From a virus, in IMG/VR virus record IMGVR_UViG_3300033149_003380, positions 1 through 45,094 of that record: a stretch of 45,094 nucleotides of DNA; one strand, given 5' to 3'. Position numbers and translations under genes: made by a program. Under the pieces are notes generated by a model. The model had not been told where the DNA came from. It worked only from the letters and a program-made list of their open reading frames with translations, and ran no database searches. Below, piece after piece: positions 3,501 through 44,619 of the stretch; the first letter of the stretch is position 1; every line of letters begins with the position of its first letter.

Positions 3501-4043
3501 AACCAAGTAAGCATAGCAGACTTATCGGGAAATCAAATTTCAGGAGCCTTAGCTTGGGACTTTGGAGCAGCCACAAGTTTTGAATTGCCCAACGCAGCAT
3601 CTTTAACCTTAGACGCTAACGGAGAAGCATATATTGATACAACCGCAGACCAATTAAAGTATTACTCTGGCGGAGAAATTCATTCAATAGTAGCCACTCG
3701 TTCATTTTCTTTTATACTGGGAAATGACCACATAACATCAGCTTCTTGGGCGGTTGAAACTCAATTTACCGAGCCAATAACTATTACTAAGATTAGTTGT
3801 AGGGCAAAAAGCGGAACTAGCTTTCAGTTAGAACTATTAGAATGCGACGCTGACGCTGGCTCTTGCACCGATGTTGATAGCACAATTACGTGTGCCACTA
3901 CAACAACTTATGATGACGGGTTTTTAACAAATCCTTCAATAGATGCCTTAGACAAAATTATAGCTTCTACTTCTGACGGAGCCGTGTCAGGAGCTGTAGA
4001 AACTGGCGCTGTTGAGGTTTGGTATAAGATGACCGCTGAATAA
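588..4043 (+). CDS. Large modular beta-rich fibre-like protein with N-terminal membrane segment
   Basis: 1151 residues from ATG 588. I prefer this start to the in-frame ATG 24 nt upstream because an AAGG sits at 572-575 and the protein then begins with a clean positively charged signal or anchor (MRIKKLLVF followed by about 18 hydrophobic residues). The rest is low-complexity Thr/Ser/Gly/Asn beta structure. It includes the LSSTDWDTFNSK motif seen in many metagenomic tail-fibre-like proteins and two copies of a roughly 105-residue module (about residues 63-168 and 784-888) that share an exact 65-bp DNA repeat. The C-terminal 110 residues look like a Cys-containing beta-sandwich. A fibre or a displayed surface protein would both fit; the export-type N-terminus is odd for a fibre. 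Confidence 0.6.
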   Translation: MRIKKLLVFTFVSIIICIAIIALMNSWANYDNETEVPSDFGAMTFWMYKNSQLQPVVSTWNILSSGSVNFDNTVSISGALNFGSLINCDTIDTDANGVPSCGTDETGSGSGMILHNLLGSWHADTNPASVSRGSLIYGNSTPKWSELTIGASNSFLLSDGTDVKWDDSATSLFLSNDLYVGGIGLDDTGSAVAGSTLIGIPALSGATYTTQEHYNRLSQSAGRTSGGGITDNGDGTVAVAAGTGFIKATDSDAAELLSFDWAASSSVEIITDDTIYIGIIYNSGTPKIDCRTTDVWDLDTEFPLGSVVNIGGHTNILQNPWWVGDSITNIIERTQSFGWITRDERIKGLIISKSGTRNLDYTAGTLWSRLTEFDIPASTAAAFETYYRDGSGGWTVEEGITQWSIEDYDDGDGTLASLSANRYANIWVFMETDGEPAIVYPQAQFTNAAAAGLEKLPSTLPPTLTEAGILLGRITIQDGVDEPVEVQSAFVDVIETALVTDHGNLGGLNDDDHTQYVLSNGTRAMTSDWTFGSNDLFASSSFFLEGLSVDGTASISGTLDVTGAITGNLTGNADTATALAANGANCAAGQYPLGIDASGAVEGCTADSDTTYTAASPLSLVGTVFNIDLASTSGGGYLSSTDWDTFNSKWDSVSDIGDGTITEIKLDINSAPTEEYILGWNGTKLDYFATTSWDTNTTYTAGGTLLDLTGTTFSINEGTLTNGKGCKFVTGTGIVCDQDYLLTVDISDNTNLTAGTNITLSDDTLNVDDVFVLTAGDLITGNIVSSGSFEIDNTVSISGQLAFGNLINCDTIDTDANGVPSCGTDETSAGGLSAHNLLGSYHGDTLPASVSANSLIYGGETTWQLFSAPTASSSFLQYNGTSLSWNDLIVSVGNMNAEDFGDFTCNGTACTNDADSIALATDTTGNYVATIADSGNSVITVANSGSENAAVTLTITADGIDDTHIDWGTGANQVSIADLSGNQISGALAWDFGAATSFELPNAASLTLDANGEAYIDTTADQLKYYSGGEIHSIVATRSFSFILGNDHITSASWAVETQFTEPITITKISCRAKSGTSFQLELLECDADAGSCTDVDSTITCATTTTYDDGFLTNPSIDALDKIIASTSDGAVSGAVETGAVEVWYKMTAE
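840..904 (+). repeat. 65-bp direct repeat, copy 1
   Basis: Identical base for base to 3003-3067 inside the same gene. It encodes the start of a repeated module (LINCDTIDTDANGVPSCGTDE). Flanking module sequence has diverged, so the core is under conversion or is a recent duplication. Confidence 0.95.
3003..3067 (+). repeat. 65-bp direct repeat, copy 2
   Basis: Second exact copy of 840-904, in the same reading frame, opening the C-terminal copy of the module. Recombination between the copies would delete about 2.16 kb in frame (721 codons). Confidence 0.95.
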
Positions 4044-27851: not shown

Positions 27852-29165
27852 ATGAAAGGATGGAATAAAATTGAAAAGATACTCGGTTATAACCCTAATA
27901 AATGGCAAAAGGAAGTAAGAGCCGATAAGAGCAGGTTTAAAGTAATTTGCGCTGGCAGAAGATCTGGAAAGTCATTTTATGTTGCTCATGACACTAAAGA
28001 CGGGGTAATGGCTGATTTATTTAAAGCCAATCAAAAGGTTCTTATTGTTGCTCCAACATATCGGCATACGCAAAGGGTGTGGAATACGGTCTTGAACGCC
28101 GTGTATAGAATACAAAAATGGGGCAGGGAGAATAATGATGAACTTTTAAAAAACATCATACATAGAGTTCATGATTCTAAGGGCGACTTTTCCATAGAAA
28201 CCATATTTGGAACCACTGTTGAGGCATGGTCGGCTGATGATCCCGAAAAATTGGTTGGAATGGGAAATACCAAGGTTATTATTGACGAGGCTGGTTTGGT
28301 TAAAGACAAAGCATGGTCTCAATCATTAAGGCCAACTTTAGCTGATTTTAAGGGAGGAGCAATTTTCATTTCGACGCCGAAGGGAGAAAATTGGTTTTAT
28401 GATATTTGGATGAAAGGACAAGACGAACTAGATACCGAATGGAGATCTTGGAAATATACGACCTATGATAATGAACACATAGACAAAAACGAGATTGATT
28501 CTATGGCCAAGGATATGTCTGATGTGGAGTATTCCCAAGAAATTATGGCTGAATTTATTCACGGAATGGGCAAAATGTTTGGGAATGCCTCAAGATGTAT
28601 AAGAGGAGCTTTAAGAAAGCCAGATAAGAATAAAACGTATTTAATGGGCGTAGACCTAGGAAGAAAAGTAAGTTTCACGGTTATTGTGATAATTGACCCA
28701 GAAGATAGGCAGGTTGTATTTTTTGACCGATTTCACGGAATTCATTGGAGGCAACAGATAGAAAAAATTAAAAAAGCCTATTTTGATTATAACTCTCCGC
28801 TTGGCTGTATTGATGCCACTGGTTCTGGTGGGGATATGTATTACGAACAATTACTTGAAAATGGGGTTGGATTAGAGCCTTATATTTTTAGTGGCGGTTG
28901 GGGAAAGTCAAAAAGACAACTTATGGATAAATTGGCTGTTTTAATTGAAAGAAAACAAATATTTTTTCCCAATGTGCGACAATTGCTTAATGAACTAGCG
29001 GCCTATAAAGTAGAACAATCAGAGGCTGGAAATATTAAATATGGAACATTTGGCAAGTTTACCGATGATTGTGTTGACGCATTAGCTTTGGCGTGCTGGA
29101 ATCTTCCAGTGGAAATAAGATCTAGCGAGGCAGAGCTAATTAGTCCACCAATAACGGATTATTAA
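27852..29165 (+). CDS. terL: Terminase large subunit
   Basis: 437 residues. ATPase: Walker A CAGRRSGKS (33-41), Walker B KVIIDEAG (Asp145, Glu146), coupling motif ISTPKG (174-179). Nuclease: Asp268 in GVDLGRK, Asp321 in CIDATGSGG, and the acidic cluster FTDDCVDALAL (Asp405-409) at the end. All catalytic residues are present. It powers DNA translocation into the procapsid and cuts the concatemer. The length is typical. The start lacks a Shine-Dalgarno site. Confidence 0.95.
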   Translation: MKGWNKIEKILGYNPNKWQKEVRADKSRFKVICAGRRSGKSFYVAHDTKDGVMADLFKANQKVLIVAPTYRHTQRVWNTVLNAVYRIQKWGRENNDELLKNIIHRVHDSKGDFSIETIFGTTVEAWSADDPEKLVGMGNTKVIIDEAGLVKDKAWSQSLRPTLADFKGGAIFISTPKGENWFYDIWMKGQDELDTEWRSWKYTTYDNEHIDKNEIDSMAKDMSDVEYSQEIMAEFIHGMGKMFGNASRCIRGALRKPDKNKTYLMGVDLGRKVSFTVIVIIDPEDRQVVFFDRFHGIHWRQQIEKIKKAYFDYNSPLGCIDATGSGGDMYYEQLLENGVGLEPYIFSGGWGKSKRQLMDKLAVLIERKQIFFPNVRQLLNELAAYKVEQSEAGNIKYGTFGKFTDDCVDALALACWNLPVEIRSSEAELISPPITDY

Positions 29166-29178
29166 CAAGGAAAAATAA

Positions 29179-30945
29179 ATGCCTTATTCACCATCTGATA
29201 TAGAACAAGAGGCCATTAAGATTCTTCGTAACGAGGAAGCGGAATGGCGAGAAGGTCATGCTTATTTGACCGACAAAATTTTATTTAAAACAAGGAATAT
29301 TATTAAACGAGCTAGGAAAAATTACTTTAGCACGTTTGACGTTGAAAGAGACCCTATAACCAATAGAAAAAAAATATTCTTACCTTTAACTAGAGATATG
29401 GTAGAAACCACAGTTAAGAATATTGATTTAGATGTTAAGGATGTATTGGTAAAAGCAAAAAACAGCAACTCTTATGGAATTGCTGCTTTGGCAACTTATA
29501 TTTTACGTAATGCATTACATCAACTAAGATTTGGTCAAATTCTGAACAGAATTATTAGAAAAACATGCGTAGAGGGGGTTTCGGTTTTAAAGACTATGAA
29601 AACAGGAAAAAAGAGCGAGCCATACAAGTTTTCATTAGTTGAAAACCTTAATTTTTATACTGACCCATCAGCCAACTTTTTAAAGGAATCTTCTGGCAAC
29701 CTAGAAAGGCATTGGATGAGCATTGATGAACTTAAATCATTTCCATGGAAAAACATTGAATATGCCGCTGGAACAACCTCTGTTGAAAGAATTGCTGATT
29801 TGCAGGCAATTAAAACTCAGGTTCCCTATGTTGAAGTTTGGGAGCGTTGGGGGAAAATGCCTGCTTATTTAGTTACTGGCAAACCCGAGGACAAAAAACG
29901 ATATATTGAAGGAACTATTATTATTTCTAATTTAAAAGGAGAACCAATAGTTCATTTAATTGCCGAAAATAAAACCGGTAAACGACCATATACAGAGTTT
30001 AGAACGAAAACTTACGATGGTAGGTGGCTTGGCATTGGATTGGGAGAAGATCTAGACCAATTACAATCGTCTATTAATGAAACATTTAATATCAGGTTAA
30101 ATTCTGCCAGAACAAAACAGCTTGGTATTTGGAAATATAGAAAAGGCGCAGGAATTAAGCCCCATGAGATAAGACAGCTATATGCTAATATGGGAATTGG
30201 AGTTACTAGAATGGACGACTTAGAAGAATTACGAACCGAAGACATTAAGCCCAGTTCTTATCGAGACACAGAAGAGGCGTATTTGTGGGCCCAAAGAATG
30301 ACTGGAGCTTGGGAAATGTCTAGAGGAGAGCAACTTCCAAGAGTACAACCAGCCACTACGGCCGTATTACAGGAGAGGGGAGCAAAAAGTGGTTTTAACC
30401 TACAACAAGAAGAATTGGGATTTGCTTTAAGTGCGTTTTTTGAAGAGGCTTTTGCTCCAGCTATATTTAATTCACTAAAAGACGGAGAAGAAATTGAAAT
30501 TATAGAAGAACCACGATTATTTGAGGCTATGCTTAAAGACTTAGAAGCCCAAAGGGCGGCTGGTAGGGCGGTTAATATAGAAAAATTCCGCAGAACAAAA
30601 ATGTTTAAAGTTGATAAAGCCTCTTTGTTTGATCCAGAAGCAATTATGAATTCTATCCAAATTCATATTACAGGAGAAGAATTTAATAAAGAATTATTAA
30701 TACAGCAACTAAATACCATTCTTGGTAGTTATGGTCAGCTTCCCGGCCTACAAATAGATCCAAATGCCATTGTGAAAGAAGCATTGGACATTATGGGTTT
30801 GGGCGGAGACAGGTTTATGGCAAAAACGCCATCTGGAATTCTCGCCCCACAGCAACAACAGCAACAAAGACCAGTTCAACGACCAACCGAGGCCATTGGT
30901 CAATCAGCCACATTAGAAGGAATGGGAATGGGTGCTGGATTATAA
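29179..30945 (+). CDS. Portal protein
   Basis: 588 residues, starting 13 nt after the terminase with AACAAGGAAAA upstream. It is rich in helices, with a long central helical part and a Gln-rich C-terminal tail (APQQQQQQRPVQRPTE). The segment RLNSARTKQLGIWKYRKGAGI and the position between terminase and scaffold support a portal of the P22/SU10-like short-tailed type. It forms the DNA channel ring at the capsid vertex. No internal disruption is visible. Confidence 0.8.
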   Translation: MPYSPSDIEQEAIKILRNEEAEWREGHAYLTDKILFKTRNIIKRARKNYFSTFDVERDPITNRKKIFLPLTRDMVETTVKNIDLDVKDVLVKAKNSNSYGIAALATYILRNALHQLRFGQILNRIIRKTCVEGVSVLKTMKTGKKSEPYKFSLVENLNFYTDPSANFLKESSGNLERHWMSIDELKSFPWKNIEYAAGTTSVERIADLQAIKTQVPYVEVWERWGKMPAYLVTGKPEDKKRYIEGTIIISNLKGEPIVHLIAENKTGKRPYTEFRTKTYDGRWLGIGLGEDLDQLQSSINETFNIRLNSARTKQLGIWKYRKGAGIKPHEIRQLYANMGIGVTRMDDLEELRTEDIKPSSYRDTEEAYLWAQRMTGAWEMSRGEQLPRVQPATTAVLQERGAKSGFNLQQEELGFALSAFFEEAFAPAIFNSLKDGEEIEIIEEPRLFEAMLKDLEAQRAAGRAVNIEKFRRTKMFKVDKASLFDPEAIMNSIQIHITGEEFNKELLIQQLNTILGSYGQLPGLQIDPNAIVKEALDIMGLGGDRFMAKTPSGILAPQQQQQQRPVQRPTEAIGQSATLEGMGMGAGL

Positions 30946-32041: not shown

Positions 32042-33544
32042 GTGAAAAAGTTCTTTAAATTGTGGAACATTTTATTTGGAAAGTTAAGCATTGGTTGTGC
32101 CACTGACGAAGAATTAAGAACCTATGGTGATGTTTCTCGTAAAGAGGACGTGCTCGGTTTAGTTGAAATTCTTACCGCCACAGAAGATTATTTTCTAAAT
32201 AATCTTGGTAAGACAACCGCTACCGATATGGTACACATCACATTAACCGATACCCTTAGGAGCGTTGCAACAGCAGCAGTAGCTGAAGGTGGAGACTATA
32301 CAATGTTGGCTAGAACTACACCTTCTAGACTACAGAATATAGTTGAAATCGTTGCCATTCCTTATTCGGTTACTAGGTCACAACAGCAAATTACCAAACA
32401 CACTGGTGTAAACGAATTAGCTCGACAAACAGCTAAAGCTATTAAAGAATGGGCTGACGCAGCTGAATTTGATATTGTTCGAAGCACATTGACTTCTGGA
32501 GCATCTGGAACTACCCCGAAGATGAGTAAACTTAAAAATAAAATATATGAATTGTTTAAATTGTGGAAAGCCAAAACCAAACAAGCGTGCGAAACTATGT
32601 CGCAAATGCTATTTGGAAAAAGCGAAAGAATTTTTGCCTCCAACTATATTTAAAAAGGGACAAAATTCTGGAAAGAAACATCCATTATGGAAAGGGGGAA
32701 TGATAATTTATTGGAGAAATAAAGTATTAAAAAGGGATGATTATACTTGTAAAAATTGTGGGTTAAAAGAACCAAAGATAATGGATGTTGCTCACTTAAA
32801 ACCTATTAATGGAAATAAAAATAGGAGGTATAAACCACAAGATCCAAACAATCTTATAACATTATGTCCTAATTGTCATAGACGATTAGACAAAGGGCTT
32901 CTAAAGTATACTGCTCATCTAAAACCCCGCTAAAACGGTGAACTCCCAAAGAACGCCGTGCTAGCAGAGACAATGACCGTATGGGTCGTCTCGGGCAAGT
33001 GTAGAGACTTTACACGGGGCTCTCCGAAAGGAGATGAAGACAAAGTCCATTTATGGGTATACTGGAAGCTATTAGTCGTGCCGAAACTTATTCAGCACAG
33101 TCTTCTGGAACAGCTTTTGCTACCACTATTCTTTCTTTAATGATGAAGGATAGTTGGGATGATGGTAATGGCGATGTTGCTACCGACCTATTTGTTGGTT
33201 CTTATTTAATGGATGTTATTGACCGATTTACCACAAAGACTAATGTTATGATGAACCTTCAAGGAGCTCGTGAAATCACTATGGCTACTTCAGTATTTGA
33301 AACTAGCTTTGGTAGATTAAATGTTCACAAGCACCGACACCTTCAAATTTCAACTGATGCTACTGGTCGAGTATTATTGCTCCGACCTGACAAGTTGAAA
33401 ATTGCTTATCTCCAAAGACCATTTATTGACACAGGATTAGCAAGAAGCGGTGATTACGACAAACGAGCAGTTGTTGGTAAGTTAACATTAGAAGTTAGAA
33501 ATCAACTTGGTCATATTTACCACACCGGATTCAATATTGGCTAA
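32042..33544 (+). CDS. Major capsid protein (SU10/DUF5309-like), interrupted by a group I intron
   Basis: Exon 1 is 32042-32527 (162 codons) and exon 2 is 33056-33544 (162 codons plus stop). Spliced, they give 324 residues with the junction ...GTTPKMS|GILEAISRAE. Family features: RTYGDVSRKEDVLGLVE near the start, KEWADAAEFDIVRSTL, then MKDSWDDGNGDVATDLFVG and a jelly-free HK97-type C-terminus (RVLLLRPDKLKIAYLQRPF). The only in-frame start is GTG 32042, preceded by GGCGAAA. The first 20 residues look foreign to the family, which usually starts near ATDEELR. Unspliced mRNA would end at 32653. It is the head shell subunit. Confidence 0.85.
32528..33055 (+). mobile_element. Group I self-splicing intron (528 nt) in the capsid gene
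   Basis: Exon 1 ends in U (32527) and the intron ends in G (33055). P1: exon AGATGAGT (32520-32527) pairs with GCTCATCT (32913-32920), 7 Watson-Crick pairs plus the terminal U-G. P10: exon 2 GGTATAC (33056-33062) pairs with GTATACT (32906-32912). P3: CCGTG 32956-32960 with CACGG 33013-33017. P4/P5: GAGAC/GTCTC and GACC/GGTC (32967-32992). P7: GACTTT 33006-33011 with AAAGTC 33042-33047. P8: TCTCC-GAAA-GGAGA (33021-33034), a GNRA loop. Removal restores the reading frame. Confidence 0.92.
32547..32933 (+). CDS. Intron-encoded HNH homing endonuclease
   Basis: 128 residues in the P1 loop of the intron. Residues 3-22 form a zinc ribbon (CLNCGKPKPNKRAKLCRKC). Then comes GGMIIYWRNKVLKRDDYTC and an HNH core, CKNCGLKEPKIMDVAHLKP ... 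NNLITLCPNCHRRLDKG, with two CxxC pairs, the central His and the Asn. The last codons (AHLKPR) are written in the P1 internal guide sequence, so protein and ribozyme share bases. HNH enzymes of this type cut intron-less alleles and spread the intron. It is presumably translated from unspliced mRNA. Confidence 0.88.
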   Translation: MNCLNCGKPKPNKRAKLCRKCYLEKAKEFLPPTIFKKGQNSGKKHPLWKGGMIIYWRNKVLKRDDYTCKNCGLKEPKIMDVAHLKPINGNKNRRYKPQDPNNLITLCPNCHRRLDKGLLKYTAHLKPR

Positions 33545-34024: not shown

Positions 34025-36358
34025 ATGAAGATAGCTTTATGCTTAATAGTAAAACCAGATGATGCCGAAGCAGATGTATTATATAGAGCATTATCAACCG
34101 ATGCTTTGTATAAAAAATTTGATGGAGTTTTTATTACTATTACGGGAGAAAACGAAAAGGTTGAGGCTCAGGCTAAACAAATACCAAACGCACATATCTC
34201 TCATTTTAAATGGGTTGATGACTTTGCTAAGGCAAGAAATTTTAATTTTAGTCAAGTTCCAAAAGACTATGATTGGATAATGTGGATTGATGCAGATGAT
34301 ATTGTAAAAGGTTCTAAGTGGATTAGAAAAATTGCGGAACAAACCGACCCAAGAGTATCTGGAATTGTTTTCTTTTATTTATATGATTTTGATGAATATG
34401 GTGAATGTACGGTTAAACATAATAAAATTAGGTTAATTAAAAACGATGGTTCTTATAAATGGGTAGGAGAATTACATGAAGATTTAATGCCCAATAGAAA
34501 AACTGTTTGTTTACACAATAAGCAAGTACAAGTTTTGCACCTTACAAATCACAAAAGAGTAAACATAGCTATTCAGCGAAATCTTAAAATAACCGAAAAA
34601 GCTTTAAAGAAAAAACCAAACGATCCCAGAAGCTATTTTAATTATGCCAATGCATTACATCAATCGGGTAGATTTATGGAGTCTATTAAGGCATTTTTTG
34701 ATTTTATTCCTATGTCTAGTTCCGAGGAAGAACAATTTTTGGCATGGAATCGTATAGCTTATACCTATTTTAAAATGAGGGATTTAGAACGTTCTGTAGA
34801 AGCGGCCCTAGAAGCATTACGAATTAGGCCGTGGTATCCTGATGCGTATTTTACATTGGCTCAATCGTTTTTTGATTTAAGAAAGTTTAAACATGCTAAG
34901 GAGTTTTTAGTTACGGGACTTACAAAAGATACACCAGAATTTACATCTATTGTGTGGAATCCAAGAGATTATGATTATAACCCAATGTCTTTATTGGCAA
35001 AAACATATATTCAATTAGCTGATTATAAAAGGGCTTATAAGATTTTAAACAAAATGGTTGATATGTTCCCTAAAGACAAAAAGGTTAAAAGTTTTCGTGA
35101 TGAAATTTATAAAGTGGTATTAGAAATGGATAAAGTTGATGAAATTTGTGAAGCCGCTAAAGATTGTAAAAATAAATTGGCACTTAAAGCTTTGTTTGCT
35201 AAAATCCCAAAGCACCTTAGAAGCCATCCAAAATTATGTCATTTAAAAAACGTTCATTTTGTAAAAACTAAGTCAAGCGGGAAAGATTTGGCTATTTATT
35301 GTTTTGAAACTATGAAAAGATGGGATGGCAATTCTAAGGATGTAACTGGTTCAGAGGAGGCGGTAATTAATATAGCACCTTTGTTAGCTGATCTTGGATG
35401 GAATGTTACGGTATACAATTCTTGTGGTTATAAGGCGAAAAAAATAGGCAAAGTATGGTGGAGACCATTTTGGGAATTTAATCCAAGAGATAAATGGGAT
35501 GTGTTAATTGCGTGGAGACACCCATTATTATTTGACCATGGACAAGAATTAGGGGCTGTTGCTAGATATGTATGGTTACATGACGTGTTAGAACAAACAG
35601 AGTTTCCAAATCATAGAGTTAAAAATATTGATAAAATTATTCCTTTATCTCAATGGCACAGAGATTTATTTCCAGCTATTCCAGATAATAAGTTTATGAT
35701 TTCGGCTAACGGCATTAATCAGAAATATTTTGAGAAAAAAGTAAAACGCAATCCATACAAGTTGGTTTGGTCTTCTTCTCCAGATAGAGGATTACATTGT
35801 TTGTTAAATTTATATCCAGAAATCAAAAAACAAGTTCCAGAGCTAACATTAGACATATTTTATGGATGGGGCACATTTGATAGTATTTATAAAGATGATG
35901 CCGAACAACAGAAGTGGAAACAAGATATTATGAACAAAATTCAAGAATTAGAACCGTTGGGAGTAAAATATCATGGTATGGTAGATCACGAAACAATGGC
36001 AGAAGAATATATGAAATCGTCTATATGGGCCTATCCTACCGAATTTACGGAAATTAGTTGTATTACGGCTATGAAATGTCAATTGGCAGGTGCTGTACCA
36101 ATTACAACCGACGTTGCCGCTCTTAAAGAGACGGTTCAATTTGGTCGCAAATTACATTGTTCTAATATTTATTCTAATAAAAAAGCCCAAAAGAAATTTG
36201 TTAAATATGTTGTAGACGCATTAAAAGATCAAGCGTGGTTAGAGCGAACTCGTAAAAAAATGATTCCTTGGGCTAAAAAATTTAACTGGGATACTGTAGC
36301 ATATCAATGGTCTAATGAGTTTAAAAATGCCCTACAATCTAAGAGAAACACTAAATGA
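34025..36358 (+). CDS. Three-part glycosyltransferase: GT2, TPR, GT4
   Basis: 777 residues. Residues 1-190: GT-A (family 2) fold with ALCLIVKPDD, WVDDFAKARNF and the DxD-type WIMWIDADD (89-92), as in SunS-like enzymes. Residues about 195-370: tetratricopeptide helices (YFNYANALHQSGRFMESIKA; YFTLAQSFFDLRKFKHAKEF). Residues about 420-777: GT-B (GT4-like) fold with VTGSEEAVINIAPLLADLGW and the nucleotide-sugar region YPTEFTEISCITAMKCQLAG. Two catalytic domains in one chain imply two successive sugar transfers; TPR may hold a protein acceptor. It opens the glycan cassette and overlaps the next gene by 4 nt. Confidence 0.8.
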   Translation: MKIALCLIVKPDDAEADVLYRALSTDALYKKFDGVFITITGENEKVEAQAKQIPNAHISHFKWVDDFAKARNFNFSQVPKDYDWIMWIDADDIVKGSKWIRKIAEQTDPRVSGIVFFYLYDFDEYGECTVKHNKIRLIKNDGSYKWVGELHEDLMPNRKTVCLHNKQVQVLHLTNHKRVNIAIQRNLKITEKALKKKPNDPRSYFNYANALHQSGRFMESIKAFFDFIPMSSSEEEQFLAWNRIAYTYFKMRDLERSVEAALEALRIRPWYPDAYFTLAQSFFDLRKFKHAKEFLVTGLTKDTPEFTSIVWNPRDYDYNPMSLLAKTYIQLADYKRAYKILNKMVDMFPKDKKVKSFRDEIYKVVLEMDKVDEICEAAKDCKNKLALKALFAKIPKHLRSHPKLCHLKNVHFVKTKSSGKDLAIYCFETMKRWDGNSKDVTGSEEAVINIAPLLADLGWNVTVYNSCGYKAKKIGKVWWRPFWEFNPRDKWDVLIAWRHPLLFDHGQELGAVARYVWLHDVLEQTEFPNHRVKNIDKIIPLSQWHRDLFPAIPDNKFMISANGINQKYFEKKVKRNPYKLVWSSSPDRGLHCLLNLYPEIKKQVPELTLDIFYGWGTFDSIYKDDAEQQKWKQDIMNKIQELEPLGVKYHGMVDHETMAEEYMKSSIWAYPTEFTEISCITAMKCQLAGAVPITTDVAALKETVQFGRKLHCSNIYSNKKAQKKFVKYVVDALKDQAWLERTRKKMIPWAKKFNWDTVAYQWSNEFKNALQSKRNTK

Positions 36359-37197
36359 TTTCAGTTGTTATAGTGGCCAAAAACGAGTTTCAACATCTTT
36401 GGCACACTATTCACAATTTAAACTTCCGATTACAAAATTATGACCACGAAATAATTTTAATCGATGATAATTCTGATGAATATTTGACTAGAGAATATTT
36501 TTCTAGTTTTGCTAATGTAAAATATCATCGAGTTATGTTTAATGCAATTTCTCCCTCTAAACAATACGGACTTGACCAAGCTACAAATAACATTGTGTAT
36601 ATATCTGATGCTCATGTTTGTATACCACCTGATTTTTTTGAAAAAACACTAGTATTTATGAATGAGCATCCTAATTGCTCTGCTCTTTATACGCCGTTAA
36701 AATTTAAAAACAAAATAGAATACGCTCATTACAAGATAAATTTTGATACTTTTGAATGGGAAGGAAAACAACCTCGTAAAAAGCCATATAAGTGTATTAC
36801 AGGAAATCAAGGTTTATTTGTAATTAGAAAAGATAAATGGGCTGGGTTTTCACCTTTTGGCGGTTATGGTGTGGCAGAAGTATTTTGTGGATTAAGAAAT
36901 ACTATGTATGGCAATGAGTCGTGGATGTTGCCAGACACATATCATATTCATTGGATGGAGGGAAGAAAATATAATATTGACTATAAATTATTGCGAGCAA
37001 ATCATATAGCGGCCGCCTATGTTTTGGGGGGCAATCACAAGAAGGTATATGAATATTTTAGTAGCGAAATTCAACCATATATTAATAAAGCAGACTATAA
37101 TAACATAAAAGAATATTGGCAAGATTTAAGAAATAAAACATTAAAAGAAGCTAAATATAAAATTAATGATTCCGTTATTTTATCCCTCAATAAATAA
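36355..37197 (+). CDS. Family 2 glycosyltransferase
   Basis: 280 residues. N-terminal GT-A: ISVVIVAKNEFQHLWHTI, EIILIDDNSDE, ISDAHVCIPPDFF (the DxH replaces DxD), then TGNQGLFVIRKDKW and the aromatic FSPFGGYGVAEVFCGLR acceptor region. DAH in place of DxD is seen in some polypeptide/rhamnan-type family 2 enzymes. ATGA overlap with the previous gene; overlaps the aminotransferase by 32 nt. The sugar and acceptor are not predictable. Confidence 0.75.
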   Translation: MISVVIVAKNEFQHLWHTIHNLNFRLQNYDHEIILIDDNSDEYLTREYFSSFANVKYHRVMFNAISPSKQYGLDQATNNIVYISDAHVCIPPDFFEKTLVFMNEHPNCSALYTPLKFKNKIEYAHYKINFDTFEWEGKQPRKKPYKCITGNQGLFVIRKDKWAGFSPFGGYGVAEVFCGLRNTMYGNESWMLPDTYHIHWMEGRKYNIDYKLLRANHIAAAYVLGGNHKKVYEYFSSEIQPYINKADYNNIKEYWQDLRNKTLKEAKYKINDSVILSLNK

Positions 37198-38236
37198 AAA
37201 AGAATGTTTAAACGAACTAAAAGACACATTATCTGGCAGGTGGATTGGGGAAGGACCCAAGGTTAAAAAATTTGAAAAAGAGTTTTCAAAGAAGTTTGGT
37301 TTTAAATATTGTATAGCCGTTAATTCGGGAACAGCGGCACTACATCTTGCTTATATATTGGCTGGAATTAAAAAAGGAGACGAGGTTCTTTCGAGCGTTT
37401 TAACTTGTACAGCAACTCATCACCCATTATTGTGGTTAGAAGCAAAAATTAAATTTGTTGATATTGACCCAGAAACCTTAAATATGGATGTTTTGGACTT
37501 AGAGAACAAAATGACAGAAAAAACTAAGGCTATTGTTTTTACAGCATTAGGGGGAAGCCTAGAAGAACTAGACAAGGTAAAAGATTATAACTTCCCAATT
37601 ATTATAGATGCCTGTCAGGCTCTTGGACAAGAACCTATTTATGGGAACTATATAGCGTTTAGCTTTCAGGCGATTAAGAATTTGACTACTGGTGATGGAG
37701 GTATGTTGGTTGTTAGAAACAAAAAAGACTATGAAAGAGCTAAGCGATTAAGGTGGTTTGATATTGATAGAGACAAAAAAATCAAGCGAAGCTGGCAAGC
37801 GTGGGATAGGCGAGGAATTACATTTCAACAAGAAGAAATAGGATACAAATATCAAATGACAGATATAGATGCTTCTATTGGATTGGTTGGACTAAAAGAT
37901 TTTGATAAAAATTTTAAAAGACGAAAAAAGATAGTTGCTTATTACAATAAACACATTGTTAATCCGTTGGTTAAAAAAATTCCAAGCGGTAATTGGCTTT
38001 ATATGGTTTTAGTCAACAATAGAGATGGTTTTGCCTATTATTTAAAGAAAAATGGTATAGAAACAAATGTGGCACATATAAGAAACGATATATTTAAGGT
38101 GTTTGGTGGAAAAAGACAAAACTTGCCTAATATGAACGGAATTGAATTTCAATATTTGTGTATTCCATTACATCCCAATTTAACGCCCAAAGATATAAAA
38201 CATATTTGTAATATTATAAATCAATGGAAGGAATAG
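37166..38236 (+). CDS. DegT/DnrJ/EryC1-family sugar aminotransferase
   Basis: 356 residues. Features in order: GRWIGEGPKVKKFEKEF, CIAVNSGTAALHLAY (PLP phosphate site), FVDIDPETLNMD, IIIDACQALGQ (Asp148 binds the PLP ring), and the Schiff-base Lys171 in FSFQAIKNLTTGDGGM, followed by YKYQMTDIDASIGLVGL. All key residues are present. Family members transfer an amino group from Glu to a keto nucleotide-sugar. No matching dehydratase is encoded here, so the keto-sugar must come from the host. It starts inside the previous gene. Confidence 0.85.
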   Translation: MIPLFYPSINKKECLNELKDTLSGRWIGEGPKVKKFEKEFSKKFGFKYCIAVNSGTAALHLAYILAGIKKGDEVLSSVLTCTATHHPLLWLEAKIKFVDIDPETLNMDVLDLENKMTEKTKAIVFTALGGSLEELDKVKDYNFPIIIDACQALGQEPIYGNYIAFSFQAIKNLTTGDGGMLVVRNKKDYERAKRLRWFDIDRDKKIKRSWQAWDRRGITFQQEEIGYKYQMTDIDASIGLVGLKDFDKNFKRRKKIVAYYNKHIVNPLVKKIPSGNWLYMVLVNNRDGFAYYLKKNGIETNVAHIRNDIFKVFGGKRQNLPNMNGIEFQYLCIPLHPNLTPKDIKHICNIINQWKE

Positions 38237-38862
38237 TAAAACAATTTTTTGAACTATATTTACATCAAGGGCTGGGACAGAGAGCTAAATGGTGTGATAT
38301 TCCAACGCAAAAAAATCCCTTAGATGCTTGGATATTCCAAGAAATAATTTGCGAAACAAAACCAGATATTATTATTGAATGCGGTGCTGCTTGTGGGGGT
38401 TCAGCTCTTTTTATGGCAATGGTTATGGATAGAATAAATCATGGCAGAATTATTACTATAGAAATTAAAGAAATGAGAAACTGGGCAAGACATCCAAGAA
38501 TTACCTATTTAGTTGGAAGCTCTATTGATAAACCAATTATAGAACAAGTTCAAAAAATGATTAAGCCAGATGATAAGGTGATGGTTATTTTAGATAGCGA
38601 TCATCATAAAGATCACGTATATCAAGAGATGATAACTTATGCCCCAATGGTAACTCTCGGACAATATATGATAGTTGAGGATACTTTTTGGAAAGCAGAA
38701 GATAATTTAGGGCCAAAAGACGCTGTTACCGAATTTATAGAACAAAACCCAGATATGTTTACCATAGACAAAGAAAGAGAAAAGTTTTTGATTACATATA
38801 ATCCCGGTGGGTTTCTTAGAAGAAATTATGAAACAAGCAAAGTACAAAAATCCAAGGAATAA
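38224..38862 (+). CDS. CmcI-like SAM-dependent methyltransferase
   Basis: 212 residues. DIIIECGAACGGSALFMA is the SAM-binding loop, followed by GRIITIEIKE and a metal-site-like VMVILDSDHHKDHVYQE, then GQYMIVEDTFW. This order is that of cephalosporin-hydroxylase/CmcI and rhamnosyl O-methyltransferases, which methylate sugars or small metabolites. In the cassette it would cap or tailor a sugar. Overlaps the aminotransferase by 13 nt. Confidence 0.75.
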   Translation: MEGIVKQFFELYLHQGLGQRAKWCDIPTQKNPLDAWIFQEIICETKPDIIIECGAACGGSALFMAMVMDRINHGRIITIEIKEMRNWARHPRITYLVGSSIDKPIIEQVQKMIKPDDKVMVILDSDHHKDHVYQEMITYAPMVTLGQYMIVEDTFWKAEDNLGPKDAVTEFIEQNPDMFTIDKEREKFLITYNPGGFLRRNYETSKVQKSKE

Positions 38863-39706
38863 TGTCGTTAAAAATCCAGCCATTGCGTGCGTAATGCCAA
38901 TTTTTGTGCCAGAAGGTCAAATTGAAAACTACGATGTTCGTTCTAATGTTAATCCAAATAAATATTATGAATTTACCGAAAACAAACTAGAAAGTATTAA
39001 ATTTACTTTGGCTTGTTATAAGCACTATAAAACTCAATTAGATTACGATTTAATATTGGTAAATAACGACTCAAGAGACAAAGAGACATTACAATTTTTG
39101 AAAAAATTTCCAAAAGTATACCATAGAGAAAATAGGGGATTTAGTTTTGGGGCATATCAATATATCTGGGATAAGTTTGGAAATCAGTATGAATATTATT
39201 TGTTTCACGAACAAGATTGGGGACCAGCAAAAGATTATTGGTTGGAAGAAATTTTAACAAGATTTTTGTCAGATAGAGAAATTGGAGCGGTAGGAAATAC
39301 GATAGAGGATAGACCAACCGACCCCATTGGCAATGTTGAATCTTTAAAAGAGATTTTAGGAACACAAAGAGAGCGACTTTATAATTTGGATGGTGCTTAT
39401 ACTTTTACAAGTTCTAGGGTTTTACGACAAAGCGGAATAGAGGTTTTAGAGTGTGAGCCACATACAAGTTTAAATGCAATGTATAATGAAATATTGTTTC
39501 AACAGCCAATTTTGGAACAAGGATATAAATTGAGTTCGTTTGATGATAATAAGCATATAAGGGTTGCTGGCATATCAATTTATGATATACACCCCAAATA
39601 TAATAAATTAACCAATTTTGCCCCAATTATTCAAGGAAATGCACGATTTTTTTCAAGACGAATCGCTAACCACTTCAATTGGTATGATAAGCGAAAAAGA
39701 TATTAA
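38828..39706 (+). CDS. GT-A-type glycosyltransferase-like protein
   Basis: 292 residues from ATG 38828, inside the end of the methyltransferase gene (the in-frame ATG at 38807 is an alternative). Family 2-like features: IACVMPIFVPEG, YDLILVNNDSRD, ENRGFSFGAYQYIWD (nucleotide-sugar region), and LFHEQDWGPAKDYWLEE in place of the DxD segment. The C-terminal part is mixed beta/aromatic. Probably transfers a sugar; donor unknown. Confidence 0.6.
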   Translation: MKQAKYKNPRNNVVKNPAIACVMPIFVPEGQIENYDVRSNVNPNKYYEFTENKLESIKFTLACYKHYKTQLDYDLILVNNDSRDKETLQFLKKFPKVYHRENRGFSFGAYQYIWDKFGNQYEYYLFHEQDWGPAKDYWLEEILTRFLSDREIGAVGNTIEDRPTDPIGNVESLKEILGTQRERLYNLDGAYTFTSSRVLRQSGIEVLECEPHTSLNAMYNEILFQQPILEQGYKLSSFDDNKHIRVAGISIYDIHPKYNKLTNFAPIIQGNARFFSRRIANHFNWYDKRKRY

Positions 39707-40085
39707 GTTTTTTAGAAAATCGGAAATGTGGAACAAGGAAGCGGAAAATTTTGTTCGTAAACTAAATTTTTCTAGCCCTTATCATAATTTATGGTCTTGT
39801 ATTTATTCTGACCCTAAACCAGTAAGCGGTTGCTTATTATTAACGTTTGATGGTATTATAGTTCTTTTTCATTTGTTCACTCTAAAATCTAAACGCAGAA
39901 AAGGATATGCCCGTATTGTGGTTAAAAATGCCATTGAAGCGCTTAACAGAACCCCTAATCACATTTTATTGGCACGTTCAATAATAGACTCTAATGCTTC
40001 TAAATTATTTAAGTCTATGGGATTTGTATCTAATCATCATATCGACCATACCAGAACAATTGTGTGGCAATATTTTAGAGAATGA
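39684..40085 (+). CDS. GNAT-family acetyltransferase
   Basis: 133 residues from ATG 39684 (overlap of 23 nt with the previous gene). The acetyl-CoA motif A is LKSKRRKGYARIVVKNAIEAL (R-R-K-G-Y-A), preceded by strands GCLLLTFDGIIVLFHLFT and followed by ILLARSIIDSNASKLFKSMGF, the typical motif B. It would acetylate an amine, plausibly the amino sugar produced by the DegT enzyme. ATGA overlap with the next gene. Confidence 0.75.
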   Translation: MISEKDIKFFRKSEMWNKEAENFVRKLNFSSPYHNLWSCIYSDPKPVSGCLLLTFDGIIVLFHLFTLKSKRRKGYARIVVKNAIEALNRTPNHILLARSIIDSNASKLFKSMGFVSNHHIDHTRTIVWQYFRE

Positions 40086-40882
40086 ACCAACAGGAATTAA
40101 AAAAACTTATTAAAAGAAAGCTTCCAACGGACAAAGCACTTAAGCGGGTAGAAATTCTTATAATGAAATGGGCATTGCCCAAAATAGAAACTCAATGTAT
40201 TACTCAATTAATAAATAACACATCATATCCATATAAGTTGGTGATTTTAGACACTAGGGCATTGAGCAAAAATCGTAAGGGTCAATGGTGTGGAATTAAT
40301 ACTTCTAAAATTTGGAACTATTTTATTAAAAATTCTACTTGTGATTATCTTTGTATAATGGATTCTGATGCTTTTGTTGAGCCAAACTGGTTATCGGAGG
40401 CAATGAAAGTATTTAAAAAATATCCAGATGCTGGTGTTGTAGCCCCTGTTTCTAGAAGGCTAGGTATTCCTGAAAGTCAACACCTACAAGAAATAGAACT
40501 TCAGCACAAAACCCATACCCACAAAGCAAGCTCACATGTTTCGGGATATTGTTTCGTTTTTAAAAAAGAAATGTTAAAAGATGTTGGATTATTTGATGAA
40601 GATTTTTATTATTTTGGTCAAGATTCCGATTGGTGCGAGAGAATACAAGAAAATGAAAAATGGAATATCTATATTTGCCCTACAATGATAGTGGACCATG
40701 GTACTGATGAGGGTTGGAGCATTTCATCAAAAAAAGCACAAGAATCTCACGAATGTATTTGGGAGTGGCAGGAAGATACCGCTTATGCTCAAAAATTAGC
40801 ACAAATTAAAAAGAAAAAGCGAGGCAAAAATCCTAACTTATATCCATGGGGAGGAGTTGCTTGGCAAGAACATAATTTATGA
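40082..40882 (+). CDS. Family 2 glycosyltransferase
   Basis: 266 residues. CDYLCIMDSDAFVEPNWLSEA carries DSD (the DxD metal site), followed by AGVVAPVSRR, HVSGYCFVFKKEMLKDVGLFDE, FGQDSDWCERIQ (catalytic acidic segment) and VDHGTDEGWSI. The C-terminus is basic. ATGA overlaps on both sides. Probably a polymer or side-chain sugar transferase. Confidence 0.85.
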   Translation: MNQQELKKLIKRKLPTDKALKRVEILIMKWALPKIETQCITQLINNTSYPYKLVILDTRALSKNRKGQWCGINTSKIWNYFIKNSTCDYLCIMDSDAFVEPNWLSEAMKVFKKYPDAGVVAPVSRRLGIPESQHLQEIELQHKTHTHKASSHVSGYCFVFKKEMLKDVGLFDEDFYYFGQDSDWCERIQENEKWNIYICPTMIVDHGTDEGWSISSKKAQESHECIWEWQEDTAYAQKLAQIKKKKRGKNPNLYPWGGVAWQEHNL

Positions 40883-41316
40883 AATTAAATTTAGGATGCG
40901 GAGAACAATATTGGGAAGGATATAAAAACATTGATATATCTAATGCCGTACCAGCCGACCAATATTATGATATTAATCATGGCATTAAAGAAAAAAACAA
41001 TAGCGTTGATGAAATTCACGCTGGTTGTGTATTAGAACAAGTTGATGATTTTGTTTTTGTTTTAAACGAATGCTGGCGAGTTCTTAAAAAAAACGGAACC
41101 TTAAAAGGATACGTGCCCTCTACTGCTTCTAACGTATTATTTGTAGACCCAATGGACAAACGATTTTTTACAGAAGAATCTTTTCAATATTTTAATGTTG
41201 ATTCTGCTCTTTGGAAGCAGTTTGGAAAAACATACGGATTTAAGCCATGGCAGATTTTATTGGTTAAAACAGAACCAAATGGAATAATTCACTTTGAGTT
41301 AATGCCCACAAAATGA
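40879..41316 (+). CDS. SAM-dependent methyltransferase (class I)
   Basis: 145 residues, compact Rossmann type. MKLNLGCGEQYWEGYKNIDI is motif I plus the Asp of motif II; NSVDEIHAGCVLEQVDDFVF and ECWRVLKKNGTLKGYVPS are motifs IV-V. It lacks an added substrate domain, as in small sugar or lipid methyltransferases. Coupled by ATGA overlaps on both sides within the glycan operon. Confidence 0.75.
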   Translation: MKLNLGCGEQYWEGYKNIDISNAVPADQYYDINHGIKEKNNSVDEIHAGCVLEQVDDFVFVLNECWRVLKKNGTLKGYVPSTASNVLFVDPMDKRFFTEESFQYFNVDSALWKQFGKTYGFKPWQILLVKTEPNGIIHFELMPTK

Positions 41317-42251
41317 AAATAGCTATTACAACAGCAATTGAACAAGAGCCTTATGCTATTGACCATTTAGGGGTTAAACAGGGATTGGATTGGATGGGAT
41401 GGGACTACTTAATTGCCGACCCAATTATACGAGGAGCAGAAGATGCTATAAGCAGAATTATTAAATTTAAACCAGACATAGTAGTTCATTATATGGATAT
41501 TATGTTGAAGTCCAAGGCCCCAGAAATCATAGCAAAGGCAATTAAAACCAAGCAAGTTTTTTGGGAAATGGACTATCGACCAATGGCACATAATACAGAA
41601 AATTCTTATGATGGACAATGGAACCATTGGTTGACCCAAGCACCTTATTTAGATCACATTTTTTTGTCAAACAAAGGACAAATAGACTGGTGGGAAAAAG
41701 AATGGAAAACCCCTGTAAGTTATTTGCCTCATGGCTGTTATATACCAGATAAACCTAAATATGATCCAAGATTTGTTTGTGGGTGTGTATTTATTGGTTC
41801 TATGATAAACAGCGAACCATTTGTTCAAAGAACAAAATTAATAGAAAAAATAAGAAAATATATTCAAATAGCCCACATAAATTCACATAACCCAGAAGAA
41901 AGAAATGAAAATTGGAAAAATATGCCAGCTATTTATCATTCCGCAGACACAATATTAGACATATCTCATTTTTGGGATAATCCCGGATATGCCTCTGGAC
42001 GTTATTTTTATTCGGCTGGACTTGGGGGGTGTTCTATAACAAAACAATTTCCTGATTGTAAACAATTATATCCTGATGGGACTAAAGTGTATTTTAATAC
42101 GCCAGAAGAAGCTATAGAAAAAATTAAATATTATCAAAAACATTCTCGTGCTAGAAATATTGTTAAGCAAAAAGCATTTGAACATACTAAAAAATATCAT
42201 AATTTTAAATTAAGATTTCAAAAAATTTATGACACTCTTACAAAAAGTTGA
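41313..42251 (+). CDS. GT-B glycosyltransferase (CgeB-like)
   Basis: 312 residues. Two Rossmann-like halves: N-terminal HLGVKQGLDWMGWDYLIAD and DIVVHYMDIMLKSKAPEII; C-terminal VCGCVFIGSM, PAIYHSADTILDISHFWDN and GRYFYSAGLGGCSITKQFPD, then YFNTPEEAIEKIKYY. This is the CgeB/GT4-related type. As the gene directly before the APS reductase it is one of two GT-B candidates for a sulfoquinovosyl transferase (the other is the C-terminal half of the 777-residue enzyme). That link is inference. Overlaps the APS reductase gene by 23 nt. Confidence 0.7.
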   Translation: MKIAITTAIEQEPYAIDHLGVKQGLDWMGWDYLIADPIIRGAEDAISRIIKFKPDIVVHYMDIMLKSKAPEIIAKAIKTKQVFWEMDYRPMAHNTENSYDGQWNHWLTQAPYLDHIFLSNKGQIDWWEKEWKTPVSYLPHGCYIPDKPKYDPRFVCGCVFIGSMINSEPFVQRTKLIEKIRKYIQIAHINSHNPEERNENWKNMPAIYHSADTILDISHFWDNPGYASGRYFYSAGLGGCSITKQFPDCKQLYPDGTKVYFNTPEEAIEKIKYYQKHSRARNIVKQKAFEHTKKYHNFKLRFQKIYDTLTKS

Positions 42252-42876
42252 ACAAGCTAAAACAATTATATCAGATTATATTAAGAAATATCCAAAAATT
42301 TGTTTGGCCTGCTCTTGGGGAAAAGATTCAATGGTATTATTACATATTGCTCGACAGGTCAAAAAAGATATTTCTGTAATTGGAGTTATGACTCCATTTA
42401 AACCAACGGAAACCAAAAAATATAGAGATAAAATGGTTCGAAAATGGAATATACGATTTACTCAATTTAGTGCCAAAACCATTGATAGACCTAGCGACCC
42501 CGAAGAATGTTGTAATCATTTTAAGGTTAAGCCATTAAAAAAAGCACTAAAAGCTTATGACGCTTGGATTAGTGGAGTGCGTAAAACCGAAGGTATTACT
42601 AGAACAAAATTCAAATATGTAGAAAAAAAAGATGGATTAGTGAAAATTAATCCAATTCTGGATTTTACAGAAAAAGATATATGGCGTTATTTAGCCATTT
42701 ATCATATTCCTGTTAATCCAATGTATAAACAAGGTTATCGCTCTTTGGGTTGTTTGCCTTGTTCGGCTCCAGAGCAGGACGAGAACGAAACCGAAAGAGA
42801 AGGACGATGGAAGGGAACACACAAGCATTGCGGGGAATGCGGAATTCATTCCCAATCAATGAGAATCCCAAAATAG
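42229..42876 (+). CDS. cysH: [4Fe-4S] adenylylsulfate (APS) reductase
   Basis: 215 residues. PP-loop SWGKDS (29-34); cluster ligands Cys94-Cys95 (PEECCNHFKVKPL) and Cys175/Cys178 (SLGCLPC); WISGVRKTEGITR for the sulfonucleotide; and the C-terminal GECGIH with redox Cys204, after ERxGRW (190-194). The CC...CxxC set marks the assimilatory APS-using type: APS + thioredoxin gives sulfite and AMP. All key residues are present, so it is probably active. It overlaps the UDP-sulfoquinovose synthase gene by 40 nt, so the two are translated together; sulfite is the co-substrate of that enzyme. No ATP sulfurylase is encoded, so APS must come from the host. Confidence 0.88.
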   Translation: MTLLQKVEQAKTIISDYIKKYPKICLACSWGKDSMVLLHIARQVKKDISVIGVMTPFKPTETKKYRDKMVRKWNIRFTQFSAKTIDRPSDPEECCNHFKVKPLKKALKAYDAWISGVRKTEGITRTKFKYVEKKDGLVKINPILDFTEKDIWRYLAIYHIPVNPMYKQGYRSLGCLPCSAPEQDENETEREGRWKGTHKHCGECGIHSQSMRIPK

Positions 42877-43982
42877 ATGTATTTATATTGGGAATAGATG
42901 GATATTTAGGATATTCATTAGCTCTTTATTTAAAAAACAAAGGCTATACCATAGCTGGTATGGACAATTTTTCTCGTAGAAATATGGTAACCGAAGTAGG
43001 TGGACATTCTGCTATTCCTATTGATGATAGAAAGGTTGATTGGGATGTGTGGCAAGGCAATGTTACTGATTACGATGCTCTTAAAGGCGTTTTACAAACA
43101 TATAACCCTAAAACCATAGTACATTTTGCCGAACAACCATCAGCCCCATATTCTATGATTGACTGGAAACACGCTTCTTTTACACATATTAATAATGTGG
43201 TTGGCACTCTGAATGTTTTGTGGGCAATGAAAGAGGTTTGTCCAGAAGCACATTTAATTAAATTGGGAACTATGGGAGAATATGGCACCCCCAATATAGA
43301 CATACCAGAAGGATTTTTTACCATTACTTATCGAGGACGAAAAGACACCCTACCATTTCCCAAACAAGCAGGAAGTTGGTATCACCAAACCAAAGTTCAC
43401 GACTCAAACAATATTATAATGGCTTGTAAAATATGGGGACTAAGAAGCACGGATATTAATCAAGGACCCGTTTATGGCGTAAAAACCAAAGATATGGATT
43501 TAAAAGAATATAAAACTCGCTTTGATTTTGATGGTGTGTTTGGAACTGCTCTTAATAGATTTGTTGCTCAGGCATTAATTGAATATCCATTAACCGTTTA
43601 TGGAAAAGGGGGACAAACAAGGGGTTATTTACATATCAACGATTCAATGGAGGCCATTGAAATAGCGATTAAAAATCCACCAAAACAAGGAGAATATAGG
43701 GTATTTAATCAGTGGGCTGAAAAGTTTTCTATTAATGAATTGGCTGATATAGTAATTAAAACCGCAAAAACACAAGGACTTAAAGCAGAAAAAATTGAAA
43801 ACCCCAGAATAGAACTAGAAAAACATTATTATAATCCAGATCATCAGACTTTATATGATATGGGCTGGAAGCCGAGAAAAATGAAAATTATGCTACCAGA
43901 AATGTTTAAAGACTTAAAACCATTTGTGGATAGAATAGAGGCTAAAAAGGATTTTATTAAGCCCAATATTAAATGGAAATAA
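42837..43982 (+). CDS. sqdB: UDP-sulfoquinovose synthase (SQD1/SqdB)
   Basis: 381 residues from ATG 42837 (42807 is an alternative). NAD site GIDGYLG (19-25); VTEVGGHSAIPI; FAEQPSAPYSMIDWKHA; NNVVGTLNVLWAM; KLGTMGEYGTPNIDIPEG with catalytic Thr145; GSWYHQTKVHDS with Tyr182 and Lys186; DINQGPVYGVKT; TRFDFDGVFGTALNRF; YGKGGQTRGYLHI; RVFNQWAEKFS; HYYNPDH. This is the complete SQD1 signature and is unlike ordinary UDP-glucose epimerases. It converts UDP-glucose and sulfite into UDP-sulfoquinovose. The next gene, 1 nt downstream, is a glycosyltransferase. Confidence 0.95.
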   Translation: MRNSFPINENPKIDVFILGIDGYLGYSLALYLKNKGYTIAGMDNFSRRNMVTEVGGHSAIPIDDRKVDWDVWQGNVTDYDALKGVLQTYNPKTIVHFAEQPSAPYSMIDWKHASFTHINNVVGTLNVLWAMKEVCPEAHLIKLGTMGEYGTPNIDIPEGFFTITYRGRKDTLPFPKQAGSWYHQTKVHDSNNIIMACKIWGLRSTDINQGPVYGVKTKDMDLKEYKTRFDFDGVFGTALNRFVAQALIEYPLTVYGKGGQTRGYLHINDSMEAIEIAIKNPPKQGEYRVFNQWAEKFSINELADIVIKTAKTQGLKAEKIENPRIELEKHYYNPDHQTLYDMGWKPRKMKIMLPEMFKDLKPFVDRIEAKKDFIKPNIKWK

Positions 43983-43983
43983 T

Positions 43984-44619
43984 ATGAAATTATCAATTAT
44001 CGTTCCTATTATAAATTTGAATAAAAAAATTCAAGACTTAACCGACAAGTGTTTGTCGTCTATTCGCAAATATACAACCGTTCCTTATGAGTTAATTATA
44101 ATTGATAATGGCAATGCCGATAGATGGAGTGCTGATATAACAATTAAAAATGCCAGAAATGTTGGTAATGGCAAGTCTTGGAATCAAGGCTTAAAATTGT
44201 CTAGTGGGGAGTTTTTATTATTAATAGACAATGATACTGAGATTTTACATAAAGAGTGGGAAAAAGCCCTTATACGGGCTTTTGACGACCCATTGGTAGG
44301 TATATCCTTCCCAGCTACTAAAAATCGCGATGAGGACGATTTTAACGAGAAATTAAGCGGATTTTTTTGGATGATGCCCCGCAGGACATTTGAAAAAGTT
44401 GGATTAGTAGACGAAGGATATGGTTTGGGTAATTTTGAGGATACTGATTATTATATGAGAACCAAGGAAGCTGGGCTTAAACTTGTTTCTGTTCCTGAAA
44501 CAAAAATAAAACATTATTCTAGAGCAACTTGTGATCAAATACCAGAAGTACAACAAATTTATCAAATTAACGAACAAAGATATTTTAATAAATGGAAAGT
44601 TCTTCCGATGCTGAATTAA
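43984..44619 (+). CDS. Family 2 glycosyltransferase
   Basis: 211 residues. KLSIIVPIINLNKKIQDLTD, YELIIIDNGN, GKSWNQGLKLSSGEFLLLID and DND (LIDNDTEIL) form the GT-A core; FFWMMPRRTFEKVGLVDEG and NFEDTDYYMRTKEAG give the acceptor and catalytic region (ED motif); IKHYSRATC ends it. Directly after the UDP-sulfoquinovose synthase gene, it is a further candidate to use that donor, although known sulfoquinovosyl transferases are GT-B. It overlaps the start of the junction gene by 28 nt. Confidence 0.8.
   Translation: MKLSIIVPIINLNKKIQDLTDKCLSSIRKYTTVPYELIIIDNGNADRWSADITIKNARNVGNGKSWNQGLKLSSGEFLLLIDNDTEILHKEWEKALIRAFDDPLVGISFPATKNRDEDDFNEKLSGFFWMMPRRTFEKVGLVDEGYGLGNFEDTDYYMRTKEAGLKLVSVPETKIKHYSRATCDQIPEVQQIYQINEQRYFNKWKVLPMLN

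Follow-up and report, generated by a model that had tools for sequence, protein, structure and literature searches.

The sugar sulfoquinovose occurs in the sulfolipid of plants and bacteria and in archaeal N-glycans. It is strongly acidic, and its C-S bond resists sulfatases. SQD1 and Agl3 are the enzymes that combine UDP-glucose with sulfite in its synthesis, and sulfite is itself released by APS and PAPS reductases. When cysH, the gene for a reductase of this type, is found in a virus, it is usually taken to serve host sulfur assimilation, in which sulfite is converted to sulfide and then to cysteine. To our knowledge, decoration with a sulfonated sugar has been described on no virus. The two genes have nevertheless each been reported from viruses. 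A putative UDP-sulfoquinovose synthase was reported in 2020 from a Mu-like Cariaco Basin phage (PMC7785012), and the auxiliary metabolic genes of viruses commonly include cysH (PMC9301287). An earlier note on the DNA described here knew of no phage in which cysH was paired with sqdB and glycosyltransferases, and the literature searched likewise yielded no published pairing of viral cysH with sqdB. Within that literature, the novelty of the present locus is the cysH-sqdB pairing only, since viral sqdB alone and viral cysH have already been published.

The phage record and its glycan cluster

The window, meaning the whole 45,094-base stretch of DNA analysed, is the linear IMG/VR virus record IMGVR_UViG_3300033149_003380, with a GC content of 35%. 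Judged by its predicted terminase, head, adaptor and tail fibre genes, it is a tailed-phage contig. The phage hallmark, a terminase large subunit, lies at 27852 to 29165 on the plus strand (phrog_2, 178 bits), although its database matches are 27-30% identical and uninformative on the host. Profile searches place a head-tail adaptor family match at 29179-30945 and a tail fibre at 564-4043. The major head protein gene (32042 to 33544, plus strand; phrog_1328) is broken into two pieces that share a frame (32042-32653 and 33053-33544), separated by about 400 bases, with an HNH-like ORF at 32547-32933 inside. The major head gene of a second phage, G002, is split in the same way (L269 9947-11435) and also has an HNH-like ORF in the insert, as if a mobile intron had interrupted both genes; a search of the window gave no Rfam match for the putative intron. 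No tRNA genes were found in the window.

The head genes are followed by a tightly packed glycan cluster that extends from 34025 to 44619. Besides the cysH/sqdB pair, it contains six glycosyltransferases, two methyltransferases, one DegT aminotransferase and one acetyltransferase, all on the plus strand. Near its start, profile searches identified a glycosyltransferase with TPR repeats (34025 to 36358), followed by a family-2 glycosyltransferase (36355 to 37197), a DegT/DnrJ/EryC1 sugar aminotransferase (37166 to 38236), a CmcI/rhamnosyl O-methyltransferase-like protein (38224 to 38862), a second family-2 glycosyltransferase (38807 to 39706), a GNAT acetyltransferase (39618 to 40085) and a third family-2 glycosyltransferase (40082 to 40882). 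A SAM methyltransferase (40879 to 41316) and a PF13524 glycosyltransferase (41313 to 42251) precede the pair, the latter overlapping cysH by 23 nt, and a further family-2 glycosyltransferase (43984 to 44619) lies immediately 3' of sqdB. The pair itself consists of cysH at 42229 to 42876 and sqdB at 42837 to 43982. As the earlier note had claimed, the two ORFs overlap by 40 nt (42837 to 42876) when sqdB starts at the ATG at 42837; the overlap becomes 70 nt if it starts at the in-frame ATG at 42807. The overlap was dropped as proof of coupling because 11 of the 12 junctions between genes as called from 36355 to 44619 also overlap.

G002, a distant relative of the window phage, shares this glycan cluster, in which glycosyltransferases again stand on either side of the cysH/sqdB pair. 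Identity between the two phages is 31% for the terminase, 36% for the head-tail adaptor, 58-64% for the head protein, 49% for cysH and 45% for sqdB. Within the cluster, it is 52% for the DegT aminotransferase, 56% for the SAM methyltransferase, which in G002 is directly 5' of sqdB, 59% for the glycosyltransferase at 41313 and 44% for the one at 43984, whose counterpart follows the pair. The order of cysH and sqdB is reversed in G002, but their adjacency is kept. Because the whole cluster is common to both, the window and G002 are not independent origins, and their pairs are inherited from one ancestral cluster. Host contamination was ruled out, since head genes and tail-fibre genes bracket the glycan cluster and it shows synteny with the cluster of phage G002. 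The G002 cluster additionally possesses an APS kinase-like gene (L019 5218-5583) and a sulfotransferase-like gene (L019 1736-2392), a hint that glycans bearing sulfur may be a wider theme here. This kinase would drain APS unless the CysH of G002 uses PAPS. A gene for a DUF2061 small membrane protein overlaps cysH in G002 (L019 7610-7870) and in another viral contig (L023 5667-6017), downstream in one and upstream in the other.

The reductase and the SqdB-family protein

The 215-residue product of cysH matches PF01507 with 140 bits and the NCBIfam phosphoadenylyl-sulfate reductase model NF002537 with 179 bits, above the cut-off of 154, and falls below the cut-off of the APS reductase model TIGR02055. 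The Fe-S cluster cysteines of the CC...CxxC pattern are present as C94, C95, C175 and C178, and the catalytic-cysteine motif ECG[IL]H is formed by E203, C204, G205, I206 and H207. All five cysteines are invariant in a nine-row alignment that sets the window protein beside six relatives from viruses and two from cells. The AF2 model has a pLDDT of 85, with low confidence in the ECGIH tail, and its best fold match in the PDB is the assimilatory APS reductase 2goy. A loop reads SWGKDS. Based on these features, the protein is predicted to be an Fe-S (P)APS reductase type, and either APS or PAPS would release sulfite. The earlier description of a complete CysH-type reductase is thus borne out by the five cysteines and by NF002537, and its assignment as an APS reductase holds for the family and the cysteines; APS rather than PAPS as the substrate is less supported.

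A complete CysH of this five-cysteine type was found in seven viral contigs. The remaining 63 viral CysH-family matches, mostly 22-28% identical, have no ECGxH as extracted, some of them being shortened by contig ends or match trimming. Among 50,697 phage records, no close homologue of either protein of the pair was found; the best full-length CysH match was 27% identical and the SqdB matches were 23-26% identical.

The second gene encodes a protein of 381 residues that PDB comparison, NF041015, Foldseek and phylogeny assign to the SQD1/SqdB family. Its match to SQD1 in the PDB has an E of 3e-121, the next family reaching 3.7e-9, and across its full length it shares about 49-52% identity with Arabidopsis SQD1. 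With Foldseek, the TM score to 1qrr is 0.91 at 49% identity, and the E values are 4.7e-45 for SQD1 and 1.8e-19 for GalE. In the SqdB tree, the protein lies inside the family, among viral sequences with weak support, and three outgroup SDR proteins on long branches are excluded at 99. The earlier note had named a placement among ordinary epimerases as evidence against its reading; neither the tree nor the fold places the gene there, and an ordinary epimerase identity is ruled out by sequence, fold and tree.

The residues T145, Y182 and K186 of the window protein, in the arrangement T145-M146-G147...Y182-H183-x2-K186, align with T145, Y182 and K186 of SQD1. The signature of UDP-sulfoquinovose synthases, [ST]MG-xn-YxxxK (PMC8987622), is present in the proteins from both the window and G002. 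The window protein also keeps H96 and M146, whose equivalents in Agl3 are essential (PMC4388408). The note had further regarded a loss of catalytic residues in close relatives as adverse, and this is partly the case in G002, where the catalytic Thr is replaced by Ser145 and the TPNIDI motif is lost, though the [ST]MG signature is kept. The window and G002 proteins are not joined in the tree, but a joint clade is not rejected (p-AU 0.14).

Position 101 departs from the characterized enzymes. Arg101 is essential in Agl3, and the R101A mutant is inactive (PMC4388408). It is present in SQD1 and Sinorhizobium SqdB but is replaced by Pro101 in the window protein and in 55 of the 58 distinct viral sequences. 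A cellular count of Pro101 in 80 of 80 sequences was biased by a scan pattern that contained [QM]PSAP and was left out of the evidence. In addition, NF041015 gives the window protein 501 bits, less than its cut-off of 575. These two properties would fit an SQD1-fold dehydratase or epimerase that no longer adds sulfite and instead performs 5,6-dehydration or some other sugar step, especially as Agl3 and SQD1 are themselves 5,6-dehydratases when sulfite is absent (PMC8987622). Chloroflexota relatives, moreover, adjoin HisD-family genes and not sulfur genes. Against this, a cellular relative with Pro101, from the Bipolaricaulota contig L106, scores 589 and passes the cut-off, and its gene belongs to a cysH-sat-sqdB run. 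The cut-off also misses likely members, and a score under it is no ground for exclusion, because the alphaproteobacterial SqdB of Sinorhizobium, encoded in an sqdB-glycosyltransferase operon, scores only 332. The GTMGEYGTPNID motif is likewise intact in the window protein, and a loss of sulfite addition appears quite unlikely. The note's identification of a UDP-sulfoquinovose synthase therefore stands as to family, fold and the Thr/Tyr/Lys residues, and is weakened by the NF041015 score and by Pro101. Because of this substitution, the label SqdB-family protein is preferred, and synthase activity is putative.

Recurrence of the pair in viruses and bacteria

The viral sqdB set comprises 68 contigs including the window, many of them fragments and some near-copies, with 58 distinct sequences. 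A search of the whole records with PF01507 found cysH in 3 of these (2 of the 67 beyond the window), and in all three it is adjacent to and overlaps sqdB. The order in L006 is cysH-sqdB with an overlap of 22 nt, sqdB being cut by the contig end, while in L019, which is part of the G002 record, it is sqdB-cysH with an overlap of 10 nt. The CysH proteins of these two are 46-49% identical to that of the window, and the three sqdB-linked proteins form one clade (support 85/95) within a less well supported viral group. The adjacency thus recurs in divergent genomes, namely the window, L006 and L019/G002, and, with sat between the genes, in L106.

In that bacterial contig, cysH, the ATP sulfurylase gene sat and sqdB form a run that is followed by GT2, membrane and methyltransferase genes. 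Among 80 cellular sqdB loci, no other had a cysH nearby. Genes of the histidinol-dehydrogenase and semialdehyde-dehydrogenase families are frequent next to the sqdB relatives in Anaerolineae (Chloroflexota; for instance L119 8206-9516), where they make up 12 and 11, respectively, of the 76 neighbours scanned.

Viral sqdB is not regularly accompanied by cysH. The other 65 of the 68 contigs, many of which are fragmentary records, are without it, and 4 of the 7 viral contigs with the five-cysteine cysH type are without sqdB. Many phages with either gene alone and no link between them had been named as a sign against the proposal; single genes do predominate, but the pair still recurs. A separate viral group (L002, L003, L004, L005, L008, L011, L012, L018 and others) carries sqdB in a replication module, far from glycan clusters and flanked by dCMP deaminase and ParB/DNA-methylase genes; 14 deaminase matches were counted among 122 neighbours.

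The predominance of single genes is what would be expected if cysH and sqdB were adjacent only through the shuffling of glycan cassettes, with CysH boosting host sulfur assimilation and SqdB using host sulfite. In two contigs (L025 and L026), the five-cysteine cysH adjoins structural genes with no glycan cluster, and cysH is among the commonest viral auxiliary genes reported (PMC9301287). Shuffling alone, however, fits poorly with an adjacency that survives the reversal of order in G002, with the single clade of sqdB-linked CysH proteins and with the bacterial cysH-sat-sqdB run. Two of the four other viral cysH genes of this type also lie in sugar clusters, of a NeuB nonulosonic-acid-like or other glycan type without sqdB (L023 3029-10870; L027 3482-11561). 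Overall, a purely fortuitous adjacency seems unlikely. The earlier proposal that CysH feeds sulfite to SqdB accordingly draws its support from the recurrent pair, the CysH clade and the bacterial run, and loses the overlap as a strong argument, with mostly single genes also counting against it.

Proposed pathway and comparison with described systems

The reading preferred here, which we consider probable, is that CysH would provide sulfite and SqdB would form a sulfonated sugar nucleotide, either UDP-sulfoquinovose or a close 6-sulfo variant, which the cluster glycosyltransferases would transfer to a virion or host glycan. The chemistry of such a phage sulfonation module is plausible. The analysis establishes which genes are present, their conserved residues and folds, the recurring overlap of the pair and a cellular precedent for the run of genes; from these we infer the activities, sulfite hand-off, product and target. 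No ATP sulfurylase was detected in the seven contigs with the five-cysteine cysH type, and an APS kinase was found in G002 only; therefore, APS or PAPS would be supplied by the host. Phage CysH would reduce it to sulfite, and SqdB would then oxidise and dehydrate host UDP-glucose and add the sulfite, with UDP-sulfoquinovose or a related UDP-6-sulfo sugar as the product. Attachment would fall to glycosyltransferases beside the pair; the likeliest are the two at 41313 and 43984, the counterparts of which flank the G002 pair. Against this step, no known sulfoquinovosyltransferase family was recognised. The acceptor may be a virion glycan or else the host surface, and the location of the cluster, with head genes on one side and tail-fibre genes on the other, favours the former. 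The narrower proposal, that this phage lineage builds a sulfoquinovose donor of its own, using APS and UDP-glucose taken from the host, and places the sulfonated sugar on virions or on the surface of infected cells, is offered only tentatively.

Sulfolipid synthesis is the best-known role of SqdB, and the acceptors of the several cluster glycosyltransferases are unassigned, so that a real pathway could instead supply the sulfolipid (SQDG) of the host membrane while infection proceeds. This is highly improbable. No SqdX/SqdD-like neighbour of sqdB was recognised in the window. The accompanying methyltransferases, DegT aminotransferase, acetyltransferase and glycosyltransferases are typical of complex glycans, and the position of the cluster among virion genes also argues against a lipid product.

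If the pairing works as proposed, some viral cysH genes would serve sulfosugar synthesis and not host sulfur assimilation, and sulfur genes in viromes would need a different interpretation. A strongly acidic, sulfatase-resistant sugar would also be added to the glycan tools known from phages, and it might influence adsorption or the way phages compete with one another.

Compared with described systems, the window CysH has the same CC...CxxC cysteines, ECGIH cysteine and fold as the reductases of Pseudomonas aeruginosa (2goy) and Mycobacterium tuberculosis (7lhr), but is only 25-27% identical to them. Its SWGKDS loop is nearer to PP-loop ATP enzymes than is the corresponding loop, SFSAED, in the reductase from L106. 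Membership of the PAPS_reduct family is common to the window and to reported viral cysH genes (e.g., PMC9301287), although most of the viral matches found here lack the catalytic cysteine motif that the window protein possesses. The SqdB-family protein shares with Arabidopsis SQD1 (1i24/1qrr) and Sulfolobus Agl3 the fold, the NAD-binding GxxGxxG, the TMG...YxxxK residues, H96 and M146, and differs from them in Pro101 and in being phage-encoded beside cysH. In L106, as in the window, cysH and a P101 sqdB form one run leading into glycan genes, but L106 has an ATP sulfurylase that the phage does not, and its CysH is in another clade. The Cariaco Basin phage likewise encodes a putative UDP-sulfoquinovose synthase; its genome is Mu-like, the main text of the paper mentions no cysH, and the authors propose host N-glycosylation under pressure (PMC7785012), whereas in the window the corresponding gene is joined to cysH within a glycan cluster.
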